A DNA stretch of 64,000 nucleotides from Terrabacter sp. Ter38 (GTDB taxonomy: Bacteria > Actinomycetota > Actinomycetes > Actinomycetales > Dermatophilaceae). The DNA lies in NCBI RefSeq assembly GCF_024519435.1, contig NZ_JALJRZ010000005.1, forward strand, positions 1 to 64,000, written 5' to 3'. Positions 3,142 to 24,982 of the stretch are shown piece by piece. The notes below the pieces were generated by a model, which had not been told where the DNA came from, made no database searches, and worked only from the letters and a program-made list of their open reading frames with translations. The first letter of the stretch is position 1. Every line of letters begins with the position of its first letter. The translations under genes were made by a program, and so were the position numbers.

Positions 3142-3843
3142 TCAATGTTTGATGGAGCCGCCGTCGACGACGATGGTCTGGCCTGTGACGAACGAGGAGC
3201 CCGGTGAGAGCAGGAACCGGACCGGCTCGATGTAGTCGTCGGTGGTGGACGCCCGCTTGATGGCGCGGGTCTGGATGTTGGCCACCTCCGAACCGGCGAT
3301 CGACGCTGACAGGGGAGTCCGGACCAGCCCCGGCGCCACCACGTTGACGGTGACTCGGCGGTCGCCGAGCTCCCCGGCGAGGCACCGAGCGAAGCCGATG
3401 ACGCCCGCCTTGGACGCGGCATACGCGGCGGCTCCTCGAGGGCCCTTGAAGGCCGTGCCGGACGAGAAGAGGACGACGCGGCCCTCGTCGGCGACGTGCG
3501 GGGCGAGGGACTGCACGGCTGACAGGGTGCCGTGCAGGTTCACGGTGAGAATCCGCTCCCACGAGCCGCGTGCCATGGTGAGGAAGTCGCCGAAGCCGCC
3601 TATGGCCGCACAGTGGACGAGCCCATGCAGCCCCCCATCCGCGCGCTCGGCGATCCCGCGAGCCAGCTGGTCCATCTCCTGGTGGGCCAGGACGTCACCG
3701 ACGAGGTAGGTGACCCCGGGCGCCGGACGTTCCGGTGCAGCGAGATCCACGACGACGACGTCCCAGTCGGGAGCCAGCGCGCGTGCCAGCGCCGCCCCGA
3801 TCCCCGACGACCCGCCGGTGATGACGACCGTCCGGGCGGTCAC
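3142..3843 (-). CDS. short-chain dehydrogenase/reductase (SDR)
   Basis: 233 residues, classical SDR length. The cofactor motif TGGSSGIG is at 9-16, HCAA replaces NNAG near 77-80, catalytic Ser is near 128, and Tyr141 and Lys145 form YAASK. The GTG start at 3843 overlaps the stop of the upstream permease gene (GTGA), indicating translational coupling. It is the last gene of a minus-strand operon: SDR (4805-5644), permease, this gene. Likely oxidises or reduces an alcohol/ketone intermediate of the substrate imported by the transporter. Substrate unknown. Confidence 0.88.
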   Translation of the reverse strand: MTARTVVITGGSSGIGAALARALAPDWDVVVVDLAAPERPAPGVTYLVGDVLAHQEMDQLARGIAERADGGLHGLVHCAAIGGFGDFLTMARGSWERILTVNLHGTLSAVQSLAPHVADEGRVVLFSSGTAFKGPRGAAAYAASKAGVIGFARCLAGELGDRRVTVNVVAPGLVRTPLSASIAGSEVANIQTRAIKRASTTDDYIEPVRFLLSPGSSFVTGQTIVVDGGSIKH

Positions 3844-4787
3844 CGGGTGCGGCTCTGGACGAGCCTCTGCAGCCCGGAGATGGCGTAGTCCAGAGACATC
3901 GACAACAGGCCCATCGCGAGCAGGACCGCGAACGACTCGGCGACCTGGAAGTTGTTGGTCAGCACGACGAGGCGCTGCCCCAGACCCGTGTATGCACCTA
4001 CCATCTCGGACACGACCGCGCCGAGCACGGAGTAGACGGCTCCGAGGCGCAAGGCCCCGATGATGCTCGGCAGGGCGCTCGGCATCTCGACCTTGACGAA
4101 GCGCTGGACGGGTGTCATCGACAGGGACCTGGCGAGCTGGTCGACGTCGTGGTCGATGCCGCGCAACGCGGTGGCGGTGTTCGTGAGGAGGACGAAGAAG
4201 ACGACGCTGGCGGCGACGAGGGCCTTCGGGCCGAATCCAAGGCCGAACCAGAGGATGAAGATGGGCGCGAGCGCAGGACGGGGGAGGCTGTTGGCCAGCG
4301 TGAGGAACGGCCCGGCCGCACGCTCGAGAACCGGCCACCGCGAGAAGGCGACGCCGCTGAGGATGCCGAGTGCGGCACCGACGACCAGACCCGCCATCGC
4401 CCCGGCGAACGTGCTGGTCACGTCCGTCCAGAACTTGGCGTCGCCGAGCTGGGTGACGAACGCTTTGGCGACGTCCTGCGGGGCGGAGATGAGGAGGGGG
4501 TCGATCAGCTGGCGCCCGCTGACGAGATACCAGCCGCCGAGAAACAGCACGCCCACGACGACCCGGATCGTCCACGTCGTGCGGGTCGCTCGGCGACGGG
4601 CACGGTTGCGCTCGACGAGGATGTCACGCTCGACGGCGTCGGCGGTGTGGTCAGCGTCCCGGTTGGCGGCATGCCGCGTGGAGGCCTGCCCGGCGGGTGA
4701 GGCGGAGGGAGAGCCCACGGTCGGTGTGCTCCTCTCGTCGATGGTGTTCACGATGGTCCTGACAGGATCGGGTCCTACGGCGGGCAT
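3840..4787 (-). CDS. ABC transporter permease, nitrate/sulfonate/taurine type
   Basis: 315 residues from the ATG at 4787. A charged cytoplasmic N-terminus of about 80 residues precedes a BPD_transp_1 domain with about six helices. The coupling (EAA) loop is visible near GALRLGAVYSVLGAVVSE with a following GLG. This is the SsuC/TauC/NrtB family. Its ATPase is divergently encoded at 5843 and the likely binding protein is 17 kb away at 22492. Start chosen to avoid running into the upstream SDR gene. Confidence 0.88.
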   Translation of the reverse strand: MPAVGPDPVRTIVNTIDERSTPTVGSPSASPAGQASTRHAANRDADHTADAVERDILVERNRARRRATRTTWTIRVVVGVLFLGGWYLVSGRQLIDPLLISAPQDVAKAFVTQLGDAKFWTDVTSTFAGAMAGLVVGAALGILSGVAFSRWPVLERAAGPFLTLANSLPRPALAPIFILWFGLGFGPKALVAASVVFFVLLTNTATALRGIDHDVDQLARSLSMTPVQRFVKVEMPSALPSIIGALRLGAVYSVLGAVVSEMVGAYTGLGQRLVVLTNNFQVAESFAVLLAMGLLSMSLDYAISGLQRLVQSRTR

Positions 4788-4804
4788 TGTTGCGCGTCCC
4801 GCCG

Positions 4805-5644
4805 TCAGACGAGGGCCGATTGGGGCACAAGGTCCACGTCGGCGGGGGTGGAGGTGTGTGGTCCTCCCGCGACGACGAGGCTCTCGCCGGTGATGTACGA
4901 GGCCGCGTCGGAGCTGAGGAACGCGCAGACGCCGGCGATGTCCTCCGGAGTGCCGACCCGCCCGAGGGCGACGTAGCGTGCCACCTTCTGCTCGGTGTCG
5001 CCCCCGGCAAACCGCGACGACGGCGTCATGACAGCACCGGGCTCGATGCAGTTCACGCGGACGCCCAGATGGGCCCACTCCCAGGCCATCGTCCGGGTGA
5101 GCGAGGCCAGTCCGGCCTTGGCGGCCGCATACGCCCCTCGCATCGGGTGCGCGTAGTTGGCCGACGCCGAGCCGACGTTGACGATGACACCGCCCCCGGA
5201 CTCGCGGAACGTCGGCAGGCAGGCCTTGGCCAGGTGGAAGGCGCCGGAGAGGTTCGCCTCGATGGTCGCGTTCCAGGCGTTGACCGAGAGGTCCTCCAGT
5301 CGCGCCCCGAAGTTGCCGCCGGCGTTGTTGACGAGCACGTCGATGCCGCCGAGCTCGGACAGCGCCGTCTCCACGATCGCTGCAGCGGTCTCGGGAGACC
5401 GGATGTTCCCGGAGACCGTGGCCGCCCGGCGACCGAGGGCCCGGACTCGTTCGGCCCCACGGGCCAGCGCCTCCAGGTCGCGTCCGTGCAGGAGGATGTC
5501 GGCGCCGGCACCCGCGAAGAGGTCGACCACGGCGGACCCGATGCCTCCTGATGCACCGGTGATGACGACGACCCGGTCGGTGAAGTCGAAGCTCGCGGAT
5601 CCGGACGGCGTGCGCCCGGTCGACGCTGCGTGCGCAGGCGGCAT
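4805..5644 (-). CDS. short-chain dehydrogenase/reductase (SDR)
   Basis: 279 residues from the ATG at 5644, which has a good GAGAGGA ribosome site; a longer frame to 5707 runs through a hairpin. TGASGGIG is at 29-36, NNAG at 106-109, Tyr172 and Lys176 (YAAAK) are present, and the C-terminus ends with the common YITGESLVVAGG strand. First gene of the minus-strand SDR-permease-SDR operon, reading away from the ATPase gene. Related to 3-oxoacyl-ACP reductase/gluconate dehydrogenase-like SDRs; the real substrate is not predictable. Confidence 0.88.
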   Translation of the reverse strand: MPPAHAASTGRTPSGSASFDFTDRVVVITGASGGIGSAVVDLFAGAGADILLHGRDLEALARGAERVRALGRRAATVSGNIRSPETAAAIVETALSELGGIDVLVNNAGGNFGARLEDLSVNAWNATIEANLSGAFHLAKACLPTFRESGGGVIVNVGSASANYAHPMRGAYAAAKAGLASLTRTMAWEWAHLGVRVNCIEPGAVMTPSSRFAGGDTEQKVARYVALGRVGTPEDIAGVCAFLSSDAASYITGESLVVAGGPHTSTPADVDLVPQSALV

Positions 5645-5662
5645 GGTTGTCCTCTCGTCACT

Positions 5663-5689: not shown

Positions 5690-5713
5690 CTCGGGCAGGC
5701 AATGCATGGCCCC

Positions 5714-5728: not shown

Positions 5729-5750
5729 TCGCGCCCGGGCCAGAGGCGCC

Positions 5751-5780: not shown

Positions 5781-5842
5781 CGCCGAGTCCGCTGCAGCGG
5801 ACCCTGAAGAGTCGACGATGCCCAGACCAGGAGTTGACAGGC

Positions 5843-6679
5843 ATGTCCGCACAGAGCGCCCTCGAGCGAGACACCCGTGGTCTCGCGGTGGAGTTCGAGC
5901 ACGTCCACCACAGCTTCCTCCATGGGGATCGGCCTGTTCGGGTGCTCGAGGACTTCAACCTGAGGATCGAGCCGTCGGAGTTCGTCAGCATCGTCGGGCC
6001 CTCAGGGTGCGGCAAGACCACCGCGTTGTCGATGACCGGTGGCCTCATCCAGGCCCGCAGCGGGACGGTCCGGCTGGGTGACGAGGAGGTCTCCGGCGCC
6101 TCGCCGGACGTCGCGTTCCTCTTCGCCCGCGACGCCCTGATGCCGTGGCGGCGGGTGCGGAGCAATGTCGAGCTCGGGCTCGAGGTCCGCGGCGTTCCCA
6201 AGGCTGAGCGACGCGAGCGCGCCGACGCGTGGTTGAAGCGGGTGCGGCTGCATGAGTTCGCCGACTCGGACGTGCTGCACCTCTCCCAGGGGATGCGGCA
6301 ACGGGTCGCCATCGCCCGCACCCTGGTCCAGAGCCCGCGGGTCGTGCTGATGGACGAGCCGTTCGCGGCCCTCGACGCCCAGACCAGGGCCCTTCAACAG
6401 GAAGAGTTCATCCGCCTCTGGGAGGCCGAGCGCCCTACGGTCATCTTCGTCACGCACGACCTCGAGGAGGCGATCCTGCTCAGCGACCGGGTGATCCTGA
6501 TGGCGAGCCGGCCCGGCCGGATCGTGGCCGACATGAAGATCGACCTCGACCGGCCACGCACGCAGGAGATGCGCACCTCGGAGCCCTTCCGGCGCCACTT
6601 CGAGGAGCTGTCTGCCCAGCTGCGCCACGAGGTCGATCACGCCGAAGCGCTCCGCGCGGCAGAGGGCGGGGACTCCTGA
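5843..6679 (+). CDS. ABC transporter ATP-binding protein, nitrate/sulfonate/taurine type
   Basis: 278 residues; the ATG at 5843 has AGGAG 9 nt upstream. Walker A GPSGCGKTT is at 52-60, signature LSQGMRQR near 148-155, Walker B VVLMDE near 167-172 and the switch His (THD) near 205, all as in SsuB/TauB/NrtD. The Q-loop, normally FQ-x-x-ALLPW, reads FARDALMPW, so the usual Gln is replaced by Ala. Energises import with the permease at 3840 and probably the lipoprotein at 22492. One nt separates it from the following hydrolase gene. Confidence 0.92.
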   Translation: MSAQSALERDTRGLAVEFEHVHHSFLHGDRPVRVLEDFNLRIEPSEFVSIVGPSGCGKTTALSMTGGLIQARSGTVRLGDEEVSGASPDVAFLFARDALMPWRRVRSNVELGLEVRGVPKAERRERADAWLKRVRLHEFADSDVLHLSQGMRQRVAIARTLVQSPRVVLMDEPFAALDAQTRALQQEEFIRLWEAERPTVIFVTHDLEEAILLSDRVILMASRPGRIVADMKIDLDRPRTQEMRTSEPFRRHFEELSAQLRHEVDHAEALRAAEGGDS

Positions 6680-6680
6680 C

Positions 6681-7484
6681 ATGCCAGCGTCGTGGGGTGC
6701 ACGGGACGGGACGCGGCTCGGCTACGAGGTCGTCGGCCGCGGGTCGCGGACGATCACCTGCCTGCACTCCCTCGCGCTCGACGGGTCGTGGTTCCTGCCG
6801 TTGGCGGCTGAGCTCGGGAGCGACTACCGCGTCATCCTGCCCGACCTGCGGGGTCATGGGACGAGCGACTCCGGCCCCCTGCCGCTGAGTCTCGCGCAGA
6901 TGGCCGACGACGTCATCGCTCTGTGGGACCGGCTCGGCGTCGACTCGAGCGTCGTGGTCGGCATCTCCATGGGAGGAATGGTGGCGCAGGCCCTGGCGAC
7001 GACAGCCCCCGACCGGGTGGAGGCGCTCGTCCTCATCGCGACCGCCGGATCCTATGACGACGGCGCCCGGACGGCTGCGCTCGCTCGCGCCGCCGCGGCC
7101 CGGCGCCCCGGAGGCATCGAGCAGATGACCCCGGTGCTCCTCCAGCGCTGGTTCGGGGCGGAACCTTCCGAGCTGGTCGACCGCGCCCGAGGGGAGCTGT
7201 CGTCGGCGGACCCTGAGGTGCACGCGTCCTGCCTCGAGTCGATGACCCAGGTCGGGTCGATCGACCTCGACGGCGTGACGGCGCCCACCCTCGTCCTGGG
7301 CGGCCGAGACGACCTGAGCACTCCCCGCCCGGTGGTCGAGGCTCTCGCGGACGCCATTCCCGGTGCGGTTCTCGACATGGTGCCCGGCGCTCACCTGACG
7401 GCCTTCACCCATCCCCGCGAGGTCGCCGAGCGAATCCGGTCGTTCGTGGGCGTTCCTGCGGCGACCTCACCCACGCCATCCTGA
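6681..7484 (+). CDS. alpha/beta hydrolase, enol-lactonase/esterase-like
   Basis: 267 residues. Nucleophile elbow GISMGG with Ser96, a likely acid residue in GGRDDLSTP and catalytic His in GAHLTAFTHP near 243 form the triad. The overall pattern (PDLRGHGTSD) resembles 3-oxoadipate enol-lactonase-like and carboxylesterase proteins. It starts 1 nt after the ATPase stop and precedes a Baeyer-Villiger monooxygenase, so a role in hydrolysing the ester or lactone made by that enzyme is reasonable. Confidence 0.88.
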   Translation: MPASWGARDGTRLGYEVVGRGSRTITCLHSLALDGSWFLPLAAELGSDYRVILPDLRGHGTSDSGPLPLSLAQMADDVIALWDRLGVDSSVVVGISMGGMVAQALATTAPDRVEALVLIATAGSYDDGARTAALARAAAARRPGGIEQMTPVLLQRWFGAEPSELVDRARGELSSADPEVHASCLESMTQVGSIDLDGVTAPTLVLGGRDDLSTPRPVVEALADAIPGAVLDMVPGAHLTAFTHPREVAERIRSFVGVPAATSPTPS

Positions 7485-7507: not shown

Positions 7508-9412
7508 ATGCCCCAACCGAATCCAGCACATCCGACCCTCGACGAGGTGCGATCCCACATCGAGGCCGCGACGACGCCGGCGCTGCTGATGCTCGTCGCG
7601 CACGTCACCGGCGACGTCACGGTGCTGCGAGAGGAGTGGCGACCCGACCCCGCGCTGCTTCCTCACGGTGGCCTCGACCCGGCCGAGGAGCGGCGGGTCC
7701 GCGAGTTCTGCCTCGCCCGTCTCGCCGGGCACCTCGAGTCGCCGGAGCCCTGGCCGACCCGACCGAACAGCGAGGTGCTGGAGGCGATCGGGGCATGGAG
7801 CCTCGGCCCCGGTGTCGCCCAGGCCGCACGACTGCTCGACGCGGCGTTCGTCCCCGACGGAACGGACCCGCGGGCTCCCCGCTGGACGCTCGAGGACGAG
7901 GCTCCGGACCGCACGCTGCGCGCTGCGATCATCGGCGCCGGCATCTCCGGACTGCTGGCCGGCCTGCGGATGAAACAGGCCGGCATACCCTTCACGATCT
8001 TCGAGAAGGGCACGAACGTCGGCGGCACCTGGTGGGACAACACCTATCCCGACTGCCGCACCGACGTGCACAGCCACATCTACACGTACTCCTTCTTCCC
8101 GCACGACTGGCCGTCGTACTTCAGCCGGCAGCACGTGATCCACGGGTACCTGCGGCGCTTCGCCGAGGAGCACGGCCTCATCGAGCACATCGCCTTCGGC
8201 ACCGAGGTCACTGATGCGTCGTGGCACGACCGTACGAGCACGTGGCGGCTCAGCACCTCCGGGGACGGCGTGGACAGCACCCACGAGTTCGAGGTCCTCG
8301 TTAGCGCCGTCGGCCAGCTCAACCGTCCACTCGTACCTGAGATCGAGGGGCTCGACGGCTTTCGCGGCCCGGCCTTCCACTCAGCCGAGTGGGACCACAC
8401 CGTCGACTTCGCCGGCAAGCGCGTCGCGGTCATCGGCACCGGCGCGAGCGCCTTGCAGTTCGTGCCGGCCCTGGCCGGCACCGCGGAGCGGCTCACCGTC
8501 TTCCAGCGGTCCGCGCCCTGGCTCATGCCGACGCCCGAGCTGCGCGAGGACATCGCAGACGGTGAGCGTTGGCTGCTGAGGAACCTTCCGCTCTACCGGG
8601 CCTACTACCGGTTCTCGATCTTCCTGCCCCGGGCGATCGGGCAGCTCGACGCTGCCACGGTCGATCCCGACTACCCGCCGAGCGAGCGTGCGGTGTCGGC
8701 GGCCAACGAGCGACTGCGCGTCATGCTCACCGACTACCTCGTGGCACAGGCCGACGGGCGCGAAGACCTCGTCGGCAAGATCGTCCCGAACTACCCTCCC
8801 GGGGCGAAGCGGATCGTGCGCGACGACGGCACGTGGGTCGCGACCCTGAAACGGGACGACGTCGACCTCGTCAGCGACAGGGTCGTGCGGGTGGACGCCC
8901 ACGGCGTCTGGACGGAGTCGGGCGACTACGTCCAGGCCGACGTGATCATCTTCGGCACCGGTTTCACGGCGTCCGAGTTCCTCACCCCGATGACGGTGAC
9001 GGGGGCGCATGGCAAGGACCTGCACGAGACGTGGGGCATCGACGCGTGCGCCTACATGGGGCTGACGTTGCCGGACTTCCCGAACTTCTTCTGCCTCTAC
9101 GGTCCGAACACCAACCTCGTCCTGCACGGAAACCTCGTCTTCTTCCTCGAGTGCCAGTCGGCCTACGTCCTCAGCGCCATCAAGGTGCTGCTCGACACGG
9201 GCAAGTCGGCGATGTCCCTGCGCCCCGAGGTGTTCGACGAGTACCGCGCCGAGGTGACCGCTGCCAGTGCGCTGCGAGCCTGGGGGTGGTCGAGGACGCA
9301 CAGCTGGTACCAGAACGCAGAGGGCCGCTCGACGATCATGTGGCCGCTGCCCGCCCAGCGCTACCTCGAGGGGACCGAACAGGCCCACGTCGAGCACTAC
9401 GACTTCATCTGA
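7508..9412 (+). CDS. flavin-containing Baeyer-Villiger monooxygenase, 4-hydroxyacetophenone type
   Basis: 634 residues. An N-terminal extension of about 135 residues precedes the FAD motif GAGISG (143-148) and GGTWW (172-176). The Baeyer-Villiger fingerprint F-x-G-x3-H-x3-W-D is complete (Phe285, Gly287, His291, Trp295, Asp296), followed by the NADPH motif GTGASA (310-315). The length and extension match 4-hydroxyacetophenone monooxygenases rather than the shorter cyclohexanone type. It should insert oxygen next to a ketone carbonyl using NADPH and O2. Flanked by hydrolases on both sides. Confidence 0.92.
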   Translation: MPQPNPAHPTLDEVRSHIEAATTPALLMLVAHVTGDVTVLREEWRPDPALLPHGGLDPAEERRVREFCLARLAGHLESPEPWPTRPNSEVLEAIGAWSLGPGVAQAARLLDAAFVPDGTDPRAPRWTLEDEAPDRTLRAAIIGAGISGLLAGLRMKQAGIPFTIFEKGTNVGGTWWDNTYPDCRTDVHSHIYTYSFFPHDWPSYFSRQHVIHGYLRRFAEEHGLIEHIAFGTEVTDASWHDRTSTWRLSTSGDGVDSTHEFEVLVSAVGQLNRPLVPEIEGLDGFRGPAFHSAEWDHTVDFAGKRVAVIGTGASALQFVPALAGTAERLTVFQRSAPWLMPTPELREDIADGERWLLRNLPLYRAYYRFSIFLPRAIGQLDAATVDPDYPPSERAVSAANERLRVMLTDYLVAQADGREDLVGKIVPNYPPGAKRIVRDDGTWVATLKRDDVDLVSDRVVRVDAHGVWTESGDYVQADVIIFGTGFTASEFLTPMTVTGAHGKDLHETWGIDACAYMGLTLPDFPNFFCLYGPNTNLVLHGNLVFFLECQSAYVLSAIKVLLDTGKSAMSLRPEVFDEYRAEVTAASALRAWGWSRTHSWYQNAEGRSTIMWPLPAQRYLEGTEQAHVEHYDFI

Positions 9413-9433: not shown

Positions 9434-10294
9434 GTGATCCTCGAGAAGACGGTCGTCATCAACGACCTCGAGACGCGCTACCTGTCGGGTGGCCCCGACG
9501 ACGCCCCGACGGTCGTGTTCCTGCACGACGGCGCATGGGGGGCGAGCTCCGACGTGACATGGGGCGGGGTGCTGCCGCTCGCGGCGGAGGGGTTCCGCGT
9601 CGTCGCACCCGACCTGCTCGGCTTCGGCGGATCGGCCAAGGCGATTCGGCTCGACCAGTCTCCCTTCGGCTTCCGGCTGCGCCACGTCTTCGCGTTGCTC
9701 GACCACCTCGGTGTCGCCGGGCCGGTGCACCTCGTCGGGAACTCGTTCGGGGGGTCGCTGGCGCTGCGCGCCCTCACCGACCCGTCCCTGCGTGACCGGA
9801 TCGCGTCGGTCGCAACGATCAGCGGGACCGGTGGCCCGTGGCGGACTGAGGCCGCCGCGCAGCTCGGACCCTTCGACGGCACCGAGGCGGACGCGCGCCG
9901 CATCGTCGACCTGCTGTGCGACGACTTCGACGGGATCGACGCCCAGGTGGCCGCCCGCTCCCGCTGGGCCGCCGCACCGGGGCACTTCGGGTGCATGATG
10001 GCGATCCACCAGCCGGTGCCCGAGCCGCTCCAGGGGCCGCGGCCGGCGGACCCCTACCCGGGATCGCTGGCCGGCGTCGAGACGCCCGTGCTGCTGTTCG
10101 AGTGCACCGAGGACCCGCTCGTGGAAGCCGGATGGACGGCACACCTGCGCGCCCTGCTGCCTGAGGCGCACGTCGTCGAGCTACCCCGCAGGCATGCTCC
10201 GAACATCAGCCATCCCGCGCAGATGTGGGCTGCGCTGGCCGAGTTCCTGACGCGGGTGGCGCCGTCGGAGGCGGTGCGACTTGCTGCCCGATGA
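9434..10294 (+). CDS. alpha/beta hydrolase
   Basis: 286 residues from the GTG at 9434, with AAGGAG 6 nt upstream. Nucleophile elbow VGNSFGG with Ser104, oxyanion region FLHDGAWG near 29-36 and the C-terminal RRHAPNISHP that supplies the His. Resembles meta-cleavage-product hydrolases and esterases. Second hydrolase in the same operon as the monooxygenase; the pair may hydrolyse an ester and a later C-C bond or lactone, but this is inference. Confidence 0.87.
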   Translation: MILEKTVVINDLETRYLSGGPDDAPTVVFLHDGAWGASSDVTWGGVLPLAAEGFRVVAPDLLGFGGSAKAIRLDQSPFGFRLRHVFALLDHLGVAGPVHLVGNSFGGSLALRALTDPSLRDRIASVATISGTGGPWRTEAAAQLGPFDGTEADARRIVDLLCDDFDGIDAQVAARSRWAAAPGHFGCMMAIHQPVPEPLQGPRPADPYPGSLAGVETPVLLFECTEDPLVEAGWTAHLRALLPEAHVVELPRRHAPNISHPAQMWAALAEFLTRVAPSEAVRLAAR

Positions 10295-11105
10295 CCCCCG
10301 GTCGCCCGTCGCGGCGACCGACGTCACCCATGACCGGCTCTTCCAGCTCGACGGCAACGTGTACGTCGTCGTCGGGGCAGGCGCCGGCATCGGGGAGCAC
10401 GTCAGTCGGACGCTCGTGGCCATGGGTGCTGGCGTCCTGCTCGTCGACGTCGAGGCCGACGCGCTCGGCGCAGTCGCGGCCGATCTCGGGGCGCCCCACG
10501 TCGTTGCTGACGTGACGACCGAGGACGGGGTCGCCGGCGTCCGGGACGCCGTCGCGACGCACGTCGACCGCCTGCACGGCTACGTTGACGTCGTCGGGCG
10601 TATGCAGCGGAAACGCTTGGGGGACTTCACTCTTGCTGAGTGGGAGGAAGACTTCCGCGTCAACCTCCGGCACGCGTTCCTCGTCTCGCAGGGCCTGGCA
10701 CCGGTCGTGGCCGCCGGTGGGGGAGGCTCCATCGTGCACGTCTCGAGCGTGATGGGCTCCCGGGCCGGCCGGAGGTCACCGGGCTACGGCCCGGCCAAGG
10801 CGGCCCTCGAGCTCTGGGTCAAGCAGCTCGCGGCCGAGTACGGGCCCTCCGGAGTGCGGGTCAACGCCGTGGCGCCGGGGCTGTTCCTCTCGCCACGCTT
10901 CGTCGCCAACGAGGCCGGCGCGCGGTCTGCCGACGCCCTCGCGTCCCGGACGATGCTCGGCCGGCTCGGCCAGCCGTTCGAGGTCGCGGCGACGATCGCG
11001 TTCCTGCTGACTCCCGCCGCGGGCTACATCACCGGCGCGACGATTCCCGTCGAGGGTGGTTCGCTGTCCGTCGACGCGACGGGCCTGGACGACGTGCCAC
11101 TCTGA
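10281..11105 (+). CDS. short-chain dehydrogenase/reductase (SDR), atypical motif
   Basis: 274 residues from a TTG at 10281; GGAGG lies about 10 nt upstream and the start overlaps the hydrolase gene by 14 nt. The cofactor loop is VGAGAGIG (31-38). The NNAG motif is not recognisable: YVDVVGRM occupies that position. Ser (VHVSS) near 155, Tyr169 and Lys173 (YGPAK) are conserved and the end YITGATIPVEGG is typical. Probably an active NAD(P)-dependent oxidoreductase. Last gene of the plus-strand operon 5843-11105. Confidence 0.82.
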   Translation: MLPDDPRSPVAATDVTHDRLFQLDGNVYVVVGAGAGIGEHVSRTLVAMGAGVLLVDVEADALGAVAADLGAPHVVADVTTEDGVAGVRDAVATHVDRLHGYVDVVGRMQRKRLGDFTLAEWEEDFRVNLRHAFLVSQGLAPVVAAGGGGSIVHVSSVMGSRAGRRSPGYGPAKAALELWVKQLAAEYGPSGVRVNAVAPGLFLSPRFVANEAGARSADALASRTMLGRLGQPFEVAATIAFLLTPAAGYITGATIPVEGGSLSVDATGLDDVPL

Positions 11106-16111: not shown

Positions 16112-17464
16112 ATGGGAGCCTTTCCAGAGCGGCTGCTCGTCGCGAACCGCGGCGAGATCGCCCGACGGGTCATCGCGACGGCCCGGCGGCTCGGCATCGA
16201 GTCCGTGGCCGTGCACCACCCGATCGACGCCGCGCTGCCGTTCGTGCTCGAGGCCGACCTGGCCGTCCCCCTCGAGGGGGACGTCCCGGTCCGGGCGTAT
16301 CTCGACGGTGCCCAGATCATCCGCATCGCCCGCGAGGTCGGCGCCACGGCGATCCACCCGGGGTACGGATTCCTCGCCGAGAACGAGCAGTTCGCCAGGG
16401 ATGTCGTCGCGGCCGGGCTGACCTGGGTCGGGCCGTCGCCCGGGACGATCGCTGCGATGGGTGACAAGGTGGAGGCTCGCCGGGTCGTCGCCGAGGCGGG
16501 CGTGCCGGTGAGCGGGGGGGCGGACGATGCCCTGGGCTCGGTGGAGGAGGCCCTGCTCGAGGCGAGCCGCATCGGCTACCCGGTCATGGTCAAGGCCGCC
16601 GGAGGTGGTGGCGGCATCGGCATGGCCGTCGCCCACGACGCCGACGCGCTGCGCACGGCATTCGACGGCACCCGCTCGATGGCCGAGCGCAGCTTCGGCT
16701 CCGACCGGGTCTTCGTCGAGAAGTTCGTCTCCGCCGCGCGCCACGTCGAGGTGCAGGTCCTCGGCCTCGCGAACGGCACCGTCATCGCCTTGGGCGAGCG
16801 CGACTGCTCGGCGCAACGTCGCCACCAGAAGCTCGTCGAGGAGAGCCCGGCCCCGATGCTCGACCCGAGGGTCCGTGGGCGGATGCTCCTGAGCGCAGTG
16901 CAGGCGGCCGAGGTCGTCGGCTACCTCAACGCCGGCACGGTGGAGTTCCTGCTCGACACCGTCTCGGGCGAGTTCGTCTTCCTCGAGATGAACACGCGGA
17001 TCCAGGTGGAGCACCCCGTCACCGAGCTGACCTACGGCATCGACCTCGTCGAGCAGCAGCTGAGCATCGCCCACACCGGCACGACCACGGCCGACTTCGC
17101 GCCGTCACCGCGGGGGCACGCGATCGAGGTTCGCGTGTGTGCGGAGGACCCGAAGCGGTTCTATCCGCGACCGGGAGTCATCGACGAGTGGGTGGAGCCC
17201 TGCGGGCCGGGCATCCGCGTCGACTCCGCGTATGCCGCCGGCGTGGAGGTCACGCCCTTCTTTGACTCGCTCGTGGCGAAGGTGTGCGCGTACGGTGACA
17301 CGCGCGAGCAGGCGCTCGCGCGGGTCGTCGCGGCCCTGGACGAGTTCGTGGTCACGGGGCTGGTCACCAACCTCCCGTTCCTGCGCGAGCTGGTGCGGTC
17401 CGACGAGTTCGCGAGCGGCCGTTACGACACCAACGTCGTCGCGAACGTCAAGGCCGGCCGGTAG
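16112..17464 (+). CDS. biotin carboxylase subunit of acyl-CoA carboxylase
   Basis: 450 residues, the length of stand-alone AccC-type biotin carboxylases. N-terminal LLVANRGEIARRVI, the ATP-grasp glycine loop (MVKAAGGGGGIGM), the EKFVSAARHVEVQVLG segment and the catalytic MNTRIQVEHPVTE are all intact. AAAGGGGA precedes the ATG. It lacks a fused biotin domain, which is supplied by the next gene. It carboxylates biotin with bicarbonate and ATP. Confidence 0.93.
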   Translation: MGAFPERLLVANRGEIARRVIATARRLGIESVAVHHPIDAALPFVLEADLAVPLEGDVPVRAYLDGAQIIRIAREVGATAIHPGYGFLAENEQFARDVVAAGLTWVGPSPGTIAAMGDKVEARRVVAEAGVPVSGGADDALGSVEEALLEASRIGYPVMVKAAGGGGGIGMAVAHDADALRTAFDGTRSMAERSFGSDRVFVEKFVSAARHVEVQVLGLANGTVIALGERDCSAQRRHQKLVEESPAPMLDPRVRGRMLLSAVQAAEVVGYLNAGTVEFLLDTVSGEFVFLEMNTRIQVEHPVTELTYGIDLVEQQLSIAHTGTTTADFAPSPRGHAIEVRVCAEDPKRFYPRPGVIDEWVEPCGPGIRVDSAYAAGVEVTPFFDSLVAKVCAYGDTREQALARVVAALDEFVVTGLVTNLPFLRELVRSDEFASGRYDTNVVANVKAGR

Positions 17465-17498: not shown

Positions 17499-17720
17499 AT
17501 GTCCGAGAGCATCCATGCCGACATGAGCGCGAACGTCTGGAAGATCCTCGTCGCACCCGGCGACGCCGTCGAGGAGGACACGCCGCTCATGATCCTCGAG
17601 TCCATGAAAATGGAGATCCCGGTCATGTCGGAGGTCGCAGGCGTCGTCGTCGCGGTCCACGTGTCCGAGGGCGACTCGGTGGACCCCGGCCAGTCCCTGC
17701 TCGACCTCTCCACCGACTGA
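17499..17720 (+). CDS. biotin carboxyl carrier protein, minimal
   Basis: 73 residues consisting only of a biotinyl domain. The attachment motif ESMKME is at about residues 33-38, with the target Lys at 36, and flanking Gly/Val strands match lipoyl/biotinyl domains. GAAAGGA precedes the ATG. Together with the two upstream genes it completes a three-polypeptide biotin-dependent carboxylase. Confidence 0.9.
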   Translation: MSESIHADMSANVWKILVAPGDAVEEDTPLMILESMKMEIPVMSEVAGVVVAVHVSEGDSVDPGQSLLDLSTD

Positions 17721-17751
17721 ACACCTACCTGAGCTCCGAGTGAGGAACACG

Positions 17752-18750
17752 ATGACACGTATGAAGGGCTGGTCCGTCACGAGCCTCGGTGAGCCCGAGC
17801 AGGTGCTCGAGCTGCGCGACCTCGTGGTGCCGGAGCCGGGGCCGCGGCAGGTGCTCGTCCGAGTCCGTGCCAGCGCGGCCAACTTCCCCGACGTCCTGAT
17901 GTGCCGCGGCCTGTACCAGATCAAGCCGGAGCTGCCGTTCACCCCCGGTGCGGAGCTGTGCGGGGACGTGGAGGCGGTGGGATCCGAGGTGACGCGTCAC
18001 ACCGTCGGAGACCGAGTGCTCGGGCTGTGCAGCCTGCCGCACGGCGGGTTCGCCGAGTTCGCCCTCATGGACGAACACACCACGTATGCCGCCCCGGCCT
18101 CCCTCGACGACGCCCAGTCGGCGGCGCTCTTCATCGGCTACCAGACGGGCTGGTTCGGGCTGCACCGCCGCGCGCGGATTCAGCCCGGCGAGACCCTCCT
18201 CGTGCATGCCGCTGCCGGCGGTGTCGGTAGCGCCGCGGTCCAGCTCGGCAAGGCGGCGGGAGCGCGGGTCATCGGTGTCGTGGGGGGCGAGGCGAAGGCT
18301 CGGTACGCCAGGGAGCTCGGTGCCGACGTCGTCGTCGACCGCCACACCGAGGACTTCGTCGACGTCGTCAAGCGCGAGACGGGCGGTCGCGGTGCCGACG
18401 TGGTGTACGACCCCGTCGGTGGAGAGGTGTACGACCGCTCGACGAAGTGCATCGCCTTCGAGGGCCGCATCGTCGTCGTCGGGTTCGCCGGGGGCACGAT
18501 GCAGCAGGCGGCGCTGAACCACGCACTCGTGAAGAACTACTCGATCCTGGGCCTGCACTGGGGGCTCTACAACGTCAAGGACCTCCCAGCCGCCGCGGCC
18601 TGTCAGGCGGAGCTCACGCGCTTGGCCGACTCGGGCCTCATCGCGCCGTTCGTCAGCGAGAGGTTCCCCCTCGACGACACTGCGTCTGCGCTCCAGCGCC
18701 TCGCCGACGGCAGGACCGTGGGCCGGGTCGTCCTCGACGTCCGTTCCTGA
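17752..18750 (+). CDS. zinc-independent MDR, NADPH:quinone oxidoreductase-like
   Basis: 332 residues from the ATG at 17752 (a GTG at 17740 is in frame). GroES-like N-terminal domain followed by a Rossmann domain with the nucleotide loop HAAAGGVGSAAVQLGKAAGA near 147-166. No zinc-binding Cys cluster. The family (Qor, enoyl reductases, crotonyl-CoA-type reductases) reduces activated double bonds with NADPH. Probably reduces an unsaturated intermediate. Last gene of the 12160-18750 operon. Confidence 0.88.
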   Translation: MTRMKGWSVTSLGEPEQVLELRDLVVPEPGPRQVLVRVRASAANFPDVLMCRGLYQIKPELPFTPGAELCGDVEAVGSEVTRHTVGDRVLGLCSLPHGGFAEFALMDEHTTYAAPASLDDAQSAALFIGYQTGWFGLHRRARIQPGETLLVHAAAGGVGSAAVQLGKAAGARVIGVVGGEAKARYARELGADVVVDRHTEDFVDVVKRETGGRGADVVYDPVGGEVYDRSTKCIAFEGRIVVVGFAGGTMQQAALNHALVKNYSILGLHWGLYNVKDLPAAAACQAELTRLADSGLIAPFVSERFPLDDTASALQRLADGRTVGRVVLDVRS

Positions 18751-20145: not shown

Positions 20146-20366
20146 CCACCGACCTGAAGGCGGCGACGACCATGAACCTCACCATCGACGTGGCCAAGTG
20201 CTGCGGCTCCGGCCAGTGCGTCATGGCAGCCCCCGACGTCTTCGACCAGGACGATGACGGTGTGGCGTTCCTGCTGGACCAGACGCCACCCGACACCGAG
20301 CGCGCCAACGTCGACGAGGCCATCGCCTCGTGCCCGACCGGGGCCATCACGGTCGTCGATGGCTGA
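20142..20366 (+). CDS. ferredoxin, 3Fe-4S type, P450 partner
   Basis: 74 residues from a GTG that overlaps the P450 stop (GTGA); an internal ATG at 20172 is possible. The cluster pattern is CCGSGQC followed by VMAAPDVFDQDDDG and a distant CPTGAI, typical of P450-linked actinobacterial ferredoxins. In these the position of the fourth ligand is not Cys, giving a 3Fe-4S cluster. Passes electrons from the reductase at 20359 to the P450. Confidence 0.9.
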   Translation: MTTDLKAATTMNLTIDVAKCCGSGQCVMAAPDVFDQDDDGVAFLLDQTPPDTERANVDEAIASCPTGAITVVDG

Positions 20367-21579
20367 GCCGACGACTGGACGAGTCGTCGTCGTGGGCACC
20401 GGACACGGAGGTGTCCAGACAGGCAACGCGCTGCGTCGCGCGGGTTGGGTCGGCCCGATCACCCTGGTCGGCGCAGAGAAGCACCTGCCCTACCAGCGCC
20501 CGCCGCTGTCCAAGTCGTGTGCCGACGCCGAGGCCCTGGACGACCTGGCCCTGTTCCACCCAGCCGCGCACTACGACTCAGTCGGGGTCGACCTCGAGCT
20601 GGGCGCGCAGGTGGTCGGGATCGACCGCGACGGCTCTGAGGTCGAGCTGCACTCAGGCAGGCGCCTGGCCTATGACCACCTGGTCCTGGCCCTCGGTTCG
20701 CGACCCAGACCGGTGCCGGTCGCCGGCTGCGGGCTGGCCGGCGTTCACACGCTGCGGACACTCGACGACGCTCGTTGGATCAGCGCACGCCTGCGCACCG
20801 CCGGCTCGGTCGTCCTCGTGGGCGGCGGCTTCATCGGCCTCGAGCTGGCCACGGTCGCTGCCCGACTCGGCAAGCGCGTCACGGTGGTCGAGGCCGCTCC
20901 GCGACTTCTCCACGGCGCCGTCACGCCGGTCACCGGCCAGTTCCTGACCGAGCGGCATACGGCAGCAGGTGTGCGTCTGCGGCTCGGTGAGGCGGTCGAC
21001 CGGATCACCGGCGTCGACGGAGCCGTCCGGAGCGTCCTCACTGCCAGTGGCGACGAGCTGTCGGCCGACCTGGTCGTCGTGTGTGTCGGTGCAGTTCCCA
21101 ACTGTGAGCTGGCTCGGGCGGCAGGGCTACCCGTGGACGACGGCATCCTCGTCGACTACGACCTGGTGACGGCAGACCCGGCCATCTCGGCGATCGGCGA
21201 CTGTGCACGGTTTCCCTACGGCAACCGCCGCGTGCGACTCAGCTCCGTGCAGAATGCCTTCGACGGAGCGACCCACGTGGCACGCCGGCTCACGAGCGGC
21301 GCCGGCGGGTATGCGCCGGTGCCGTGGTTCTGGTCCGACCAAGCCGGTGTCAAGGTCCAGATGGCCGGGCTCCCGACTGCGCTCCACGGCGGGCTCGGCA
21401 GCGGGCCCGAGGAGCAGCTCGACGTCGAGGGGGACGTCGCGGGCGGATCATTCAGTGTGCACCGCTACGTCGATGGTCGCTTCGTCGGCGGCGAGTCGGT
21501 CGGTATGCCGCGGGCGCACCTGGCCATGCGCCGCCGGCTGGCCGCCGAGCGTGCCTCAGCCGTCCCGCTTGCCGGATGA
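20359..21579 (+). CDS. NAD(P)H-dependent ferredoxin reductase
   Basis: 406 residues. FAD motif GTGHGG near 13-18, LPYQRPPLSK typical of putidaredoxin-reductase-type enzymes, NAD(P) motif GGGFIGLELA, and the second FAD motif ending SAIGDCARFP. The start overlaps the ferredoxin stop by 8 nt. Its 3' end overlaps the convergent TetR gene by 24 nt. Completes the P450 electron chain. Confidence 0.92.
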   Translation: MAEPTTGRVVVVGTGHGGVQTGNALRRAGWVGPITLVGAEKHLPYQRPPLSKSCADAEALDDLALFHPAAHYDSVGVDLELGAQVVGIDRDGSEVELHSGRRLAYDHLVLALGSRPRPVPVAGCGLAGVHTLRTLDDARWISARLRTAGSVVLVGGGFIGLELATVAARLGKRVTVVEAAPRLLHGAVTPVTGQFLTERHTAAGVRLRLGEAVDRITGVDGAVRSVLTASGDELSADLVVVCVGAVPNCELARAAGLPVDDGILVDYDLVTADPAISAIGDCARFPYGNRRVRLSSVQNAFDGATHVARRLTSGAGGYAPVPWFWSDQAGVKVQMAGLPTALHGGLGSGPEEQLDVEGDVAGGSFSVHRYVDGRFVGGESVGMPRAHLAMRRRLAAERASAVPLAG

Positions 21580-22155
21580 GCCCGAGCCGGATGCGATCGT
21601 CAGTGCCCGGTCGCGGATGCCGGCGAGCTCCTCGTCGTCGAGCTCGAGCCCTCGCTGGAAGATGGGCTGGAGCAGGCCCCAGCCGATCAGGGTGGCCCCG
21701 AACGCAGCCGTGTGGGCGCGGACCTCTCGGTCATCCCAGTCGGGATGCTGCTGCGCGATTCCGGCCGTAATGGCCCGAATGAGCGGAAACTCCCACTCCA
21801 TGGACTCCATCAGATCGGGGTCGACCACCAGGTTTGCAACAATCCGCCACAGGTCGGCATCGGTCGAGAACAGAGTCGGATCACTCCACCAGTCCGCTTC
21901 GTGTTCGTTTCTGGCTTGTGCCGTCGCCCGGTCCGAGAGCTGCAGGAAAACCTCTCGGAATATCTTCTCCTTGGTGCCGAAATACTGATGGATCAGACCG
22001 TAGTTCACGTGCGCGCGTCGGGCGATCGCCCGACCCGAGACCTGGCTGGCCGGCTGGGCTGCCAACAGCTCCGTCGCAGCCGTCACGAGCGACGCCTTGA
22101 CCGCCTCCACCCCCCGCGGGGGTGCGATATCGTGCTCAGCCTTGGGCGTCGCCAT
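21556..22155 (-). CDS. TetR-family transcriptional regulator
   Basis: 199 residues. The N-terminal helix-turn-helix contains VSGRAIARRAHVNYGLIHQYFGTKEKIFREVF, followed by a divergent ligand-binding domain. GAGGAGA precedes the ATG at 22155. It is convergent with the P450 operon and divergent from the binding-protein gene. Possible targets are the 35-bp palindrome at 18776 or the dyad at 22241, 86 nt upstream of its own start. Ligand unknown. Confidence 0.9.
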   Translation of the reverse strand: MATPKAEHDIAPPRGVEAVKASLVTAATELLAAQPASQVSGRAIARRAHVNYGLIHQYFGTKEKIFREVFLQLSDRATAQARNEHEADWWSDPTLFSTDADLWRIVANLVVDPDLMESMEWEFPLIRAITAGIAQQHPDWDDREVRAHTAAFGATLIGWGLLQPIFQRGLELDDEELAGIRDRALTIASGSGSSGKRDG

Positions 22156-22307: not shown

Positions 22308-22491
22308 CTGGCCACCGGCGTTGGACGCACGATGTGCCTGCAGAATCCTTGTGACCCGAGGTGGCGACCAGTCAGACCACGCGAACCGGCCGGGCCCCTG
22401 GAAATGGTCTGAGGAAGTTTGGTTCCAAGCCTTTCATCCAGTCAAAGAAATCGATTCTCGGATTCAATGCCGAATCTCATGAGGAGCAGGA

Positions 22492-23637
22492 ATGTTCAGT
22501 ACCCAGCAGCGGCTCGCAGGCGATTCGGCCTCCGCTCTCTCCGCGTCGACATCGCGCCGGACCCTGCTCAGGGCCATCGGCCTTGGAGCCGTGGCCGTCG
22601 GCGGGGCCAGCGCCCTCGCCGCGTGCGGCGGTGACCCCGCCCCCACGAGCGCTGGCACGCAGGGGGGTGCGGCTGGTGGCCTGGCGGAGCCGACCGCGTT
22701 CAAGATCGCCTCCGCGCCCGGCGACAACTACTTCCTCGACGCCGTCTGCGCCGACCAGAAGCTGTTCGACAAGTACAAGCTCGATGTCGGTGAGTTCGTC
22801 TTCCCCCAGAGCGGCGTCCAGGCGATGCAGCTCTTCGCGGCGGGGGCCATCAACGGCATGCAGCAGGACACCGTGCTGACCATGGCCAGCTTCGCCAACG
22901 CCCAGCAGGGCAAGCGGCCTGTCATCGTCGGCATGCGCATCCCCGAGACGACCTACAGCATCGTCGTCAACCAGGGCACCTGGCCCGCCGCGTCCGCGAG
23001 CTTCGACGAGAAGATGCACGCCCTGGCGGGCAAGAAGATCGGCGTGGCGGCCGTCGGTGCGGGGGCGGACCAGCAGCTGCGTCTGGCCCTCGAGGCCGCC
23101 GGCATGAAGTACGAGGACGTCACGCACCTCGGTGTCGGACAGTTCACGCCGGGCATCGCGCAGATGAGGGCGGGGCGCGTCGGCGCCTACGTCGCCGTGA
23201 CGTTCGCGACGAGCGAGCTCATGGCCCAGGCCTCGGGTGGCCAGTCGTACATCCAGTTCTGGAACGAGGACGCTCCCGCGATCCTCAGCAAGCAGCAGGT
23301 CCAGCCGATCATCGTCCGCGAGGACTTCCTCGCGGACAGCAAGGACGTCGTCGCCGCGTGGAAGTCGGCCGCGTGGGATGCCAAGGACTGGATCCTGGCC
23401 AACCGCAAGGAGGCTGCCGACAAGCTGAACCAGACGCAGTTCGGTGGCAAGGGCGCCGCGGCGGCGACGGCATACATCGAGCACTACGCGACCTCCGTCG
23501 TCCCGAAGATCCTGCCCGACTGGAAGGTCGGCAAGGACGGCATCGAGGTGATGATCGCCGTCGCGGAGAAGCTCGGCGCCGTCAAGGCCGGCCAGGTGAC
23601 CTACGAGAACATCGTCGCGGACTTCGCGCGGGCCTGA
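22492..23637 (+). CDS. ABC transporter substrate-binding lipoprotein, SsuA/NMT1-like
   Basis: 381 residues. A Tat-type signal (SRRTLLRAIG) with a lipobox (ALAAC, Cys near 45) predicts export and lipid anchoring. The mature part has the sulfonate/nitrate/taurine binding-protein pattern, with GKKIGVAAVGAGADQQLRLALEAAGM in the middle. GAGGAGCAGGA precedes the ATG. It should deliver substrate to the permease at 3840 and ATPase at 5843, with which it shares promoter architecture. A strong terminator follows. Confidence 0.88.
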   Translation: MFSTQQRLAGDSASALSASTSRRTLLRAIGLGAVAVGGASALAACGGDPAPTSAGTQGGAAGGLAEPTAFKIASAPGDNYFLDAVCADQKLFDKYKLDVGEFVFPQSGVQAMQLFAAGAINGMQQDTVLTMASFANAQQGKRPVIVGMRIPETTYSIVVNQGTWPAASASFDEKMHALAGKKIGVAAVGAGADQQLRLALEAAGMKYEDVTHLGVGQFTPGIAQMRAGRVGAYVAVTFATSELMAQASGGQSYIQFWNEDAPAILSKQQVQPIIVREDFLADSKDVVAAWKSAAWDAKDWILANRKEAADKLNQTQFGGKGAAAATAYIEHYATSVVPKILPDWKVGKDGIEVMIAVAEKLGAVKAGQVTYENIVADFARA

Positions 23638-23666
23638 CGCGAGCCGACCCGGTCACCATGACCACA

Positions 23667-23705
23667 GACGGACCCGGCCGCGCTCCTCGCGCGGCCGGGT
23701 CCGTC
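23667..23705 (+). terminator. strong hairpin terminator after the substrate-binding protein gene
   Basis: A perfect 17-bp GC-rich stem (23667-23683 with 23689-23705) closes a 5-nt loop (TCCTC), 29 nt after the stop. There is no T run, as is common in high-GC actinobacterial terminators. It separates the lipoprotein gene from the acyl-CoA dehydrogenase gene. Confidence 0.85.
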
Positions 23706-23749
23706 GCCGTAGGCCCTCGCCCGGTCACGACGCCCAAGGAGCTGCGCTG

Positions 23750-24982
23750 ATGGATTTCGAGTTCGATGCCAGGACGCTCGAGCTGCGCGACAACCTGCTC
23801 GACTTCATGCGGGACCACGTGCACCCGGCCGAGCCGGTCGCCCAGGCGCAGCGCGGACGGCTCGAGGACCGGTGGGCCTGGGACTCGGTGCCCGTGCTCG
23901 CCGAGCTGCGCTCCACGGCCCGGGCTCGTGGCCTGTGGAACCTCTTCCTGCCCGGTGAGCACGGAGCGGGGCTGACCAACCTGCAGTACGCACCCCTCGC
24001 GGAGATCACCGGTCGCAGCGCGCACCTGGCCCCGGCAGCGCTCAACTGCAGCGCACCGGACACCGGAAACATGGAGGTCCTGTCGCTCTTCGGCAGCGAG
24101 CAGCAGCAGAAGGAGTGGCTCGAACCGCTGCTCGAGGCCGAGATCCGATCGTCCTTCGCGATGACGGAGCCGGACGTGGCCTCGTCTGATGCGACGAACA
24201 TCTCGACGACGATCCGGCGCGACGGAGACGAGTACGTGATCACCGGCCGCAAGTGGTGGATCACCGGCGCCATGAACCCCAACGCGCGCATCTTCATCGT
24301 GATGGGCAAGACCGACCCGAGTGCCGAGCGGCACCGGCAGCAGTCGATGGTCCTGGTCCCACGGGACGCTCCCGGCGTCGAGATCGTGCGCGGCATGGAG
24401 GTCTTCGGCTACGACGACCACGACCACGGAGGCCACGCGGAGCTCGTCTTCCACGACGTGCGCGTCCCGGTCGACAACCTCATCGGTGAGCAGGGAGGCG
24501 GCTTCGCCATCGCCCAGGCGAGGTTGGGCCCCGGCAGGATCCACCACTGCATGCGCTCGATCGGCGTCGCGGAGCGGGCCGTGGAGCTGATGTGCGCGCG
24601 GGCGCAGGAACGGGTCGCCTTCGGCCGGCCACTGGCCGACCAGGGGGTGGTGCGGGACTGGATCGCGGAGTCGCGCGTGCGGATCGAGCAGCTGCGGCTG
24701 CTCGTGCTCAAGACCGCATGGCTCATGGACACGGTCGGAAACAAGGGAGCCCACACGGAGATCCAGGCGATCAAGATCGCGACGCCGCGGACGGTCCAGT
24801 GGATCCTGGACAAGGCGATCCAGGTGCACGGCGCCGGCGGGCTGTCACAGGACTTCCCGCTCGCCAACGCCTATGCGAGCATCCGGACACTGCGGTTCGC
24901 CGACGGACCCGACGAGGTCCACAAGAACGCGCTCGCCAAGGCTGAGCTTCGCCGGCGAACATCGACCCAGCATGGGAGCTGA
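23750..24982 (+). CDS. acyl-CoA dehydrogenase
   Basis: 410 residues. The FAD-binding signature FAMTEPDVASSDATNI, the ITGRKWWITGA strand and the C-terminal helix region ending IQVHGAGGLSQDFPLANAYASIRTLRFADGPDEVHKN are all typical. It introduces a double bond alpha/beta to an acyl-CoA, passing electrons to ETF. The length and RTLRFADGPDEVH ending resemble the ACAD10/11-like branch. Overlaps the following exporter gene by 11 nt. Fits the beta-oxidation part of the proposed pathway. Confidence 0.9.
   Translation: MDFEFDARTLELRDNLLDFMRDHVHPAEPVAQAQRGRLEDRWAWDSVPVLAELRSTARARGLWNLFLPGEHGAGLTNLQYAPLAEITGRSAHLAPAALNCSAPDTGNMEVLSLFGSEQQQKEWLEPLLEAEIRSSFAMTEPDVASSDATNISTTIRRDGDEYVITGRKWWITGAMNPNARIFIVMGKTDPSAERHRQQSMVLVPRDAPGVEIVRGMEVFGYDDHDHGGHAELVFHDVRVPVDNLIGEQGGGFAIAQARLGPGRIHHCMRSIGVAERAVELMCARAQERVAFGRPLADQGVVRDWIAESRVRIEQLRLLVLKTAWLMDTVGNKGAHTEIQAIKIATPRTVQWILDKAIQVHGAGGLSQDFPLANAYASIRTLRFADGPDEVHKNALAKAELRRRTSTQHGS

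Follow-up and report, generated by a model that had tools for sequence, protein, structure and literature searches.

A putative catabolic gene cluster of Terrabacter sp. Ter38 uniting a cytochrome P450, a Baeyer-Villiger monooxygenase, a biotin-dependent carboxylase and an ACAD11-type dehydrogenase

Camphor is attacked by a P450 of the CYP101 type, and the first Baeyer-Villiger enzymes of its breakdown, the diketocamphane monooxygenases, are luciferase-like. The camphor (cam) and 1,8-cineole pathways lead from P450 hydroxylation through an alcohol dehydrogenase to Baeyer-Villiger oxidation and, for camphor, to a CoA ester; neither a carboxylase nor a 4-hydroxyacyl-CoA step is given for them in the available text (PMC4097962). 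The ATU/LIU route for acyclic terpenes is described in the same text as using CoA activation and a biotin carboxylase (PMC4097962). The Hpe pathway of Rhodococcus rhodochrous GD02, an example of aerobic ketone catabolism in an actinobacterium, possesses a three-part biotin carboxylase and phosphorylates and carboxylates the ketone itself, with no Baeyer-Villiger monooxygenase (BVMO) among its genes in the available text (PMC9618137). The subject of this paper is a cluster of 20 genes, recognised by open reading frame (ORF), Pfam, NCBIfam and PDB comparisons, between positions 3142 and 24982 of a 64,000-nucleotide stretch (contig NZ_JALJRZ010000005.1, positions 1 to 64,000; hereafter the window) of Terrabacter sp. 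Ter38.

The cluster shares with the camphor and cineole routes a P450, candidate alcohol-oxidising short-chain dehydrogenases (SDRs) and a BVMO, and with the camphor route also CoA activation; unlike them it includes a carboxylase and a candidate for a 4-hydroxyacyl-CoA step. We rejected the cam pathway because the nearest structures to the window P450 are mainly CYP105-type and no luciferase-like protein is found among the 20. A three-part biotin carboxylase is common to the cluster and the Hpe pathway, whereas the BVMO and the ADP-forming acyl-CoA synthetase (ACS) set the cluster apart; the Hpe pathway was likewise rejected, since none of the 20 proteins has the domains that we presume for hpeHI (a two-part phosphoenolpyruvate-synthase-like kinase) or hpeD (a phosphatase). 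The acyl-CoA dehydrogenase (ACAD) carries the phosphate-binding R, H and R and the catalytic D of the lva operon and ACAD10-ACAD11 route, and in the window's relatives a kinase is adjacent to it; in the window, by contrast, it stands within a larger P450/BVMO/carboxylase cluster and the kinase lies outside. We regard the cluster as a probable variant of known P450/BVMO catabolic clusters. No account of the whole set was found in the open-licence literature of PubMed Central (titles and starts of abstracts, on the gene set or candidate substrates), in agreement with the original prediction that it was undescribed.

Conservation of the cluster in other actinobacteria

A scan of a genome-contig collection for the carboxyltransferase (CT) of the cluster, using peptide patterns that catch close relatives only and give lower bounds, returned at least 38 loci. 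Eleven are in named actinobacteria, at 64-81% identity: seven Micrococcaceae, Microtetraspora, Nocardia, Rhodococcus tukisamuensis and Amycolatopsis. In 10 of these 11 genomes an ortholog of the BVMO (58-71% identity) is located within about 20 kb of CT, and the ten represent three families, the Micrococcaceae, Streptosporangiaceae and Nocardiaceae. At thresholds of 38% identity and 35% of the query, fourteen genes recur in every one of the ten: SDR1, SDR2 and SDR3, the permease, ATPase and binding protein of an ABC importer, two hydrolases (Hyd1 and Hyd2), the BVMO, a LysR regulator, ACS, CT, the biotin carboxylase (BC) and its carrier protein (BCCP) (Table 1). Other genes are partly conserved, namely the quinone oxidoreductase (QOR)-like reductase (9/10), an APH-type kinase (8/10) and the ACAD (7/10). 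Among the three stretches lacking the ACAD, those of A. cavernae and R. tukisamuensis reach the end of their contig, and the latter retains an ACAD fragment of 51% identity.

Gene order is also preserved in Microtetraspora. Thirteen genes are collinear there, SDR1 and the permease on the minus strand being followed on the plus strand by the ATPase, Hyd1, BVMO, Hyd2, SDR3, LysR, ACS, CT, BC, BCCP and QOR; the exceptions are one additional LysR gene and the placement of SDR2 elsewhere. In each of the 11 actinobacterial loci ACS adjoins CT. Eight further genes of the cluster follow CT in their pairwise protein distances (correlation r 0.78 to 0.96; BVMO 0.95), and for each of them none of 2000 label permutations gave a value as high. 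The refuting outcome named for the original prediction, scattering of the genes in relatives, was not seen, and its reading of the region as a single catabolic unit, from uptake through the P450, BVMO, hydrolases, SDRs and CoA activation to carboxylation and dehydrogenation, is supported. With most of the block together in ten distantly related genomes, the cluster appears to encode a real pathway rather than to be a chance neighbourhood.

Several relatives carry possible lower-pathway genes. Three Arthrobacter-type stretches also hold two ACADs, an enoyl-CoA hydratase, a 3-hydroxyacyl-CoA dehydrogenase and a thiolase; two stretches have a second BVMO, by eye of the cyclohexanone-monooxygenase (CHMO) kind, with an esterase and alcohol and aldehyde dehydrogenases; and a transhydrogenase-like gene (AlaDh_PNT domains) is present in Nocardia and R. 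tukisamuensis. These genes would suit the conversion of an alicyclic ketone to acyl-CoAs; none of them proves it. Arthrobacter sp. MYb227 (L076, L077) contains second copies of the BVMO, CYP199 and ACAD genes and a CHMO-like BVMO set, within about 50 kb of the first BVMO.

The cluster has probably been gained by the window genome and spread horizontally. It is nearest to that of Microtetraspora and the window's own congeners lack CT at more than 38% identity, which we read as horizontal gain. At that level CT was found in none of 57 relatives of the window genome, eight congeners included (one of them 74% complete), and an even sample of 395 other genomes of the phylum, with the three top candidates scored in each, yielded neither CT (E <= 1e-110) nor the BVMO (E <= 1e-200). 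Composition in 2-kb windows gives no island signal (GC 0.66-0.73 throughout), and the insertion site is not demonstrable, as the window begins at the contig start and the CitMHS gene of the right flank is absent in 8/8 congeners.

Predicted enzymes of the cluster

Type I BVMOs are marked by the fingerprint FxGxxxHxxxW(P/D) and two dinucleotide-binding motifs. The window BVMO (634 aa) has the fingerprint at 285 (FRGPAFHSAEWD) and dinucleotide-binding motifs at 143 (GAGISG) and 310 (GTGASA, of the form GxGxxA). About 140 residues precede its flavin adenine dinucleotide (FAD) motif, an extension that we take to be the architecture of 4-hydroxyacetophenone monooxygenase (HAPMO), which it presumably also resembles in length. 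The best PDB match is steroid monooxygenase. By these sequence features it qualifies as a type I, HAPMO-like enzyme, yet it differs from HAPMO and steroid monooxygenase in forming a group of its own at 58-71% identity; plasmid-borne matches reach about 42% at best among those listed.

The dehydrogenation step had been predicted without its particular type. The enzyme is present, but rather than an ordinary acyl-CoA dehydrogenase it is ACAD11/LvaC-like, its similarity to ACAD11 in PDB (E 1.9e-140) far exceeding that to ordinary ACADs; the motifs RLGPGRIHHCMR and ADGPDEVH are present. The available text on ACAD11 gives R626, H634, R637 and the catalytic D753 as determinants for 4-phosphoacyl-CoA (PMC12440821). 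These correspond to R258, H266, R269 and D385 of the window protein, with a one-residue offset between the numbering of the paper and that of the chain that is consistent at every position checked. The phosphate-binding motifs are identical in all ten ACADs examined, and in relatives the gene of the APH-type kinase lies directly before that of the ACAD. From the intact phosphate-binding residues we infer a 4-hydroxyacyl-CoA intermediate, which would arise naturally if a hydrolase opened a lactone made by the BVMO. A kinase 56% identical to that of the relatives is encoded elsewhere in the same genome (contig C51:72854-73861). Beside it lie another gene of the ACAD11 type and one more ACAD (L068 6365-9895).

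CT forms one clade with 38 other sequences (100/100 support) apart from 29 paralogs, in a tree whose clade sequences were chosen at >=45% identity, whose paralogs are without tested function and in which some branches are long; a stretch YGQAxxNMG is common to most of the clade. Its top structure matches are propionyl-CoA carboxylase (up to 297 bits) and transcarboxylase, with geranyl-CoA carboxylase at 163 and methylcrotonyl-CoA carboxylase at 154-177 bits. The parallel with the carboxylases of acyclic terpenes drawn in the original prediction needs amending, geranyl-CoA carboxylase not being the closest; the ATU/LIU enzymes were rejected on these lower scores and because the 20 proteins include neither a hydratase nor a lyase. 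An ordinary propionyl-CoA carboxylase beta subunit was also rejected, since the 29 paralogs from which the clade is separate are putative acyl-CoA carboxylase subunits of related genomes. Asp422 of Streptomyces coelicolor PccB is a determinant for propionyl-CoA; the window CT has alanine at this position and nearly all of the clade I, L or V, although alanine also stands at 422 in the reference chain used (3ibb, perhaps a mutant).

Outside the actinobacteria the clade occurs in Proteobacteria, Myxococcota and Thermodesulfobacteriota (L063-L066, L036-L061), where it may be part of an acid-carboxylation module; ACS adjoins CT in some proteobacterial loci as well. The non-actinobacterial loci inspected often have tripartite tricarboxylate transporter (TTT) binding proteins, a CaiB CoA-transferase, a second CT, MaoC or enolase-superfamily genes beside CT. 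The proteobacterial neighbours (TTT transporters, CaiB, MaoC, enolase-superfamily, CoA-ester lyase) vary and indicate no substrate. One locus (L052), on a contig labelled as a Bordetella parapertussis metagenome-assembled genome, has a CT nearly identical to those of uncultured betaproteobacteria, and the label is probably wrong.

The full P450 chain that had been predicted exists in the window but does not belong to the conserved core. A P450 gene is found in 9/10 relatives' stretches, the tenth (A. cavernae) being cut by a contig end, and these P450s are of three non-orthologous kinds. A CYP199-like P450 with a 2Fe-2S reductase is present in six Micrococcaceae clusters (one searched, E 3.3e-140), and Nocardia and R. 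tukisamuensis have a CYP105-like P450, likewise with a 2Fe-2S reductase. The P450, ferredoxin and reductase of the window type occur in Microtetraspora only, at 59%, 58% and 52% identity, in a block about 27 kb upstream of the BVMO that adjoins a second binding protein and SDR2. With the window chain orthologous in one of ten relatives and eight others having different P450s, we regard the P450 as an exchangeable module; some P450 seems to belong to the function, whichever it is. In Microtetraspora, ORFs that look transposase-like by eye (L069 7510-8097 and 11202-11621) flank the block, which would fit a movable module.

The proposed pathway and its alternatives

We propose that an SsuABC-type ABC importer takes up the compound, which would then be hydroxylated by the P450 with its ferredoxin and reductase and converted to a ketone by an SDR. 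Insertion of oxygen by the BVMO would give a lactone or ester, to be opened by Hyd1 or Hyd2, and the resulting hydroxy acid would receive CoA from the ADP-forming synthetase. The 4-hydroxyacyl-CoA would be phosphorylated by an APH-type kinase, in this genome on the other contig, and converted by the ACAD11-like enzyme to a 2-enoyl-CoA. An acyl-CoA that stands in the way of ordinary beta-oxidation would be carboxylated by the biotin carboxylase, the reductase would adjust the redox state and beta-oxidation would complete the process. The identities of the genes, the motifs where scanned, the co-occurrence and the ACAD11-type active-site residues are read from sequence; the substrate, the order of the steps and the acyl-CoA that is carboxylated we infer from them. 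That the cluster has spread horizontally and serves to break down an anionic or amphiphilic ring or ketone compound by this route, we consider somewhat better than an even bet. The substrate is probably alicyclic and possibly terpenoid-like; cyclohexanecarboxylate-type acids and norisoprenoids or abscisic acid were considered, and for the latter group no paper was found in open-licence PubMed Central. More tentatively, and with more doubt than confidence, we suggest that Baeyer-Villiger cleavage yields a gamma-hydroxy acid which is bound to CoA, de-hydroxylated by the kinase and ACAD11-type enzyme and carboxylated by the previously unrecognised carboxylase clade, exchangeable P450s adapting the core to different starting compounds.

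A number of observations weigh against this proposal. Amycolatopsis keeps ACS-CT-BC without a BVMO ortholog (best 41%), and the ten relatives were found through CT and not by BVMO-first sampling. The stretches around their clusters measure 27-68 kb with flanks of unequal length, so that absences hold within those stretches only; in R. tukisamuensis QOR is not at its usual place and the contig ends soon after. The distance correlations may partly mirror the species tree. The P450 block is non-orthologous in 9/10 relatives, and no hydratase or lyase for a carboxylated product is recognised by Pfam among the 20 proteins. Nor is the partner APH-type kinase among them, and the ACAD may therefore act on something else. 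The Amycolatopsis alkalitolerans locus (L034 1-12901) has kinase-ACS-CT-BC together with a luciferase-like monooxygenase, an importer and a cyclase gene.

The arrangement in Amycolatopsis, the different partners that the CT clade has in proteobacteria and the differing P450 types could mean that the region joins two neighbouring but independent pathways with separate substrates, one unit made up of the BVMO, SDR and hydrolase genes and the other of the ACS, carboxylase and ACAD genes. We find this very improbable, as both units stand together with a shared importer and LysR regulator in the window and in all ten BVMO-bearing genomes of three families, in a sample found through CT. Another possible substrate is an aryl ketone or para-substituted aromatic, which the P450 would O-dealkylate or hydroxylate; the BVMO would convert an acetophenone-type ketone to an acetyl ester, hydrolases would release a phenol for central aromatic catabolism, and ACS and the carboxylase would take the side-chain acid. 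CYP199 enzymes act on para-substituted benzoates, so that the CYP199-like P450 beside a 2Fe-2S reductase in six Micrococcaceae clusters speaks for such a route, as does the presumably HAPMO-like extension of the BVMO. PMC9618137 lists among its references a study of how an Arthrobacter metabolises acetophenone. Yet the P450 of the window is of the CYP105 kind, the annotated ORFs (part of all ORFs) include no recognisable ring-cleavage gene, and the ACAD11-type enzyme, the kinase, the carboxylase and the beta-oxidation set of three relatives would be superfluous, which makes this explanation unlikely.

The importer, by NCBIfam and structure comparison, is of the sulfonate/taurine type, and immediately after the ACAD lies a PF03601 gene, of the family to which we take TauZ to belong. 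The possibility thus arises of an organosulfonate pathway in which an SsuABC-type importer takes up the compound, its carbon skeleton is oxidised and the PF03601 protein exports the sulfate or sulfite set free; the PF03601 gene also occurs in 4/10 relatives' stretches and in a Sulfitobacter plasmid locus (L066) with a CT of the same clade. In the available text of PMC5320631, TauZ is the sulfate exporter of taurine regulons. We judge this explanation decidedly improbable: no desulfonating enzyme was recognised, the PF03601 gene is absent from 6/10 stretches, and in MYb227 it adjoins a sulfatase gene, some 7.5 kb away from the cluster. The structure model of the binding protein is of low confidence (mean pLDDT 63), and its matches do not point to a single ligand: SsuA ties with a pyrimidine-precursor-binding protein, with thiamin-, PQQ- and nitrate-binding proteins close behind.

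Gene inventory and implications

The genes are listed in Table 1. All of the functions named in the original prediction were recovered by Pfam, NCBIfam and PDB at or near the positions it gave, with some corrections to its gene list. ORF 3142-4575 on the minus strand is not a gene but SDR1 plus the permease gene, which is in a different frame; ACS probably starts near 12160; the TetR gene had not been listed; and the small BCCP and ferredoxin genes sit between larger ones.

Table 1. Genes of the cluster and one possible further member; relatives are the ten BVMO-bearing genomes
Gene product	Position	Strand	Evidence and conservation
SDR1, short-chain dehydrogenase	3142..3843	-	PF13561 E 1.2e-44; 10/10 relatives
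ABC permease, SsuC/TauC type	3840..4787	-	PF00528; 10/10 relatives
SDR2, short-chain dehydrogenase	4805..5644	-	PF13561; 10/10 relatives
ABC ATPase, SsuB/TauB type	5843..6679	+	PF00005; 72-85% identity, 10/10 relatives
Hyd1, alpha/beta hydrolase, 3-oxoadipate enol-lactonase/esterase-like	6681..7484	+	PF00561; 10/10 relatives
BVMO	7508..9412	+	PF00743; ortholog 58-71% in 10/11 genomes
Hyd2, alpha/beta hydrolase	9434..10294	+	PF12697; 10/10 relatives
SDR3, short-chain dehydrogenase	10281..11105	+	PF13561; 10/10 relatives
LysR regulator	11174..12088	+	PF03466/PF00126; 56-81% in 10/10 relatives
ACS, ADP-forming acyl-CoA synthetase	12160..14439	+	PF13549, PF13380, PF13607
CT, biotin-dependent carboxyltransferase of separate clade	14436..15977	+	PF01039
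BC, biotin carboxylase	16112..17464	+	PF02786/PF00289/PF02785
BCCP, biotin carrier, SMKM site	17499..17720	+	PF00364; motif; 73 aa
QOR-like medium-chain dehydrogenase/reductase (MDR; PIG3 family)	17740..18750	+	PF00107; 9/10 relatives
Cytochrome P450	18844..20145	+	PF00067; PDB nearest largely CYP105-type
Ferredoxin (Fdx)	20172..20366	+	PF13370; 58% in Microtetraspora
Ferredoxin reductase (FdR)	20359..21579	+	PF07992/PF14759; 52% in Microtetraspora
TetR regulator	21556..22155	-	PF00440; 0/10 relatives' stretches, window only
ABC substrate-binding protein, SsuA/ThiY-type fold	22492..23637	+	
ACAD, ACAD11/LvaC-type dehydrogenase (4-phosphoacyl-CoA)	23750..24982	+	PDB ACAD11 E 1.9e-140; 7/10 relatives
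Possible further member: YeiH-like putative sulfate exporter	24972..26069	+	PF03601; overlaps ACAD by 11 bp

The spacing and overlaps of the genes fit operons: ACS and CT overlap by 4 bp, Fdx and FdR by 8 bp and Hyd2 and SDR3 by 14 bp, and the gap between the ATPase and Hyd1 genes is 1 bp. ACS is a fusion of ATP-grasp, CoA-binding and ligase domains with an SHTG motif at residue 511. Motifs are intact in all 14 proteins scanned of the cluster's 20, that is, those other than CT, FdR, the permease, the binding protein and the two regulators. Hyd1 scores 164 bits with the PcaD model, under its cut-off of 256, and its PDB matches are esterases; those of Hyd2 are meta-cleavage-product hydrolases, and QOR reaches 245 bits with TIGR02824, again under the model cut-off. 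Among the NCBIfam models listed (up to 25 per protein) the sole one over its cut-off is the general BCCP model, and the enzymes are therefore placed in no named equivalog family. Beyond the cluster, a luciferase-like monooxygenase gene (PF00296) lies on the minus strand at 26565-27554, 0.5 kb downstream of the PF03601 gene; it has no homologue of more than 38% identity in the relatives' stretches.

This analysis greatly strengthens the single-pathway reading, and an annotation-level hunch has become a conserved module of defined content, open to study in named relatives such as Pseudarthrobacter siccitolerans 4J27, Arthrobacter sp. C2 and Glutamicibacter soli. The analysis also names a carboxyltransferase clade without assigned substrate and points to unrelated P450s as pluggable into one core route. 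If the proposed pathway is true, the 4-hydroxy-acid chemistry of ACAD10/11 would be linked to the bacterial breakdown of cyclic ketones.

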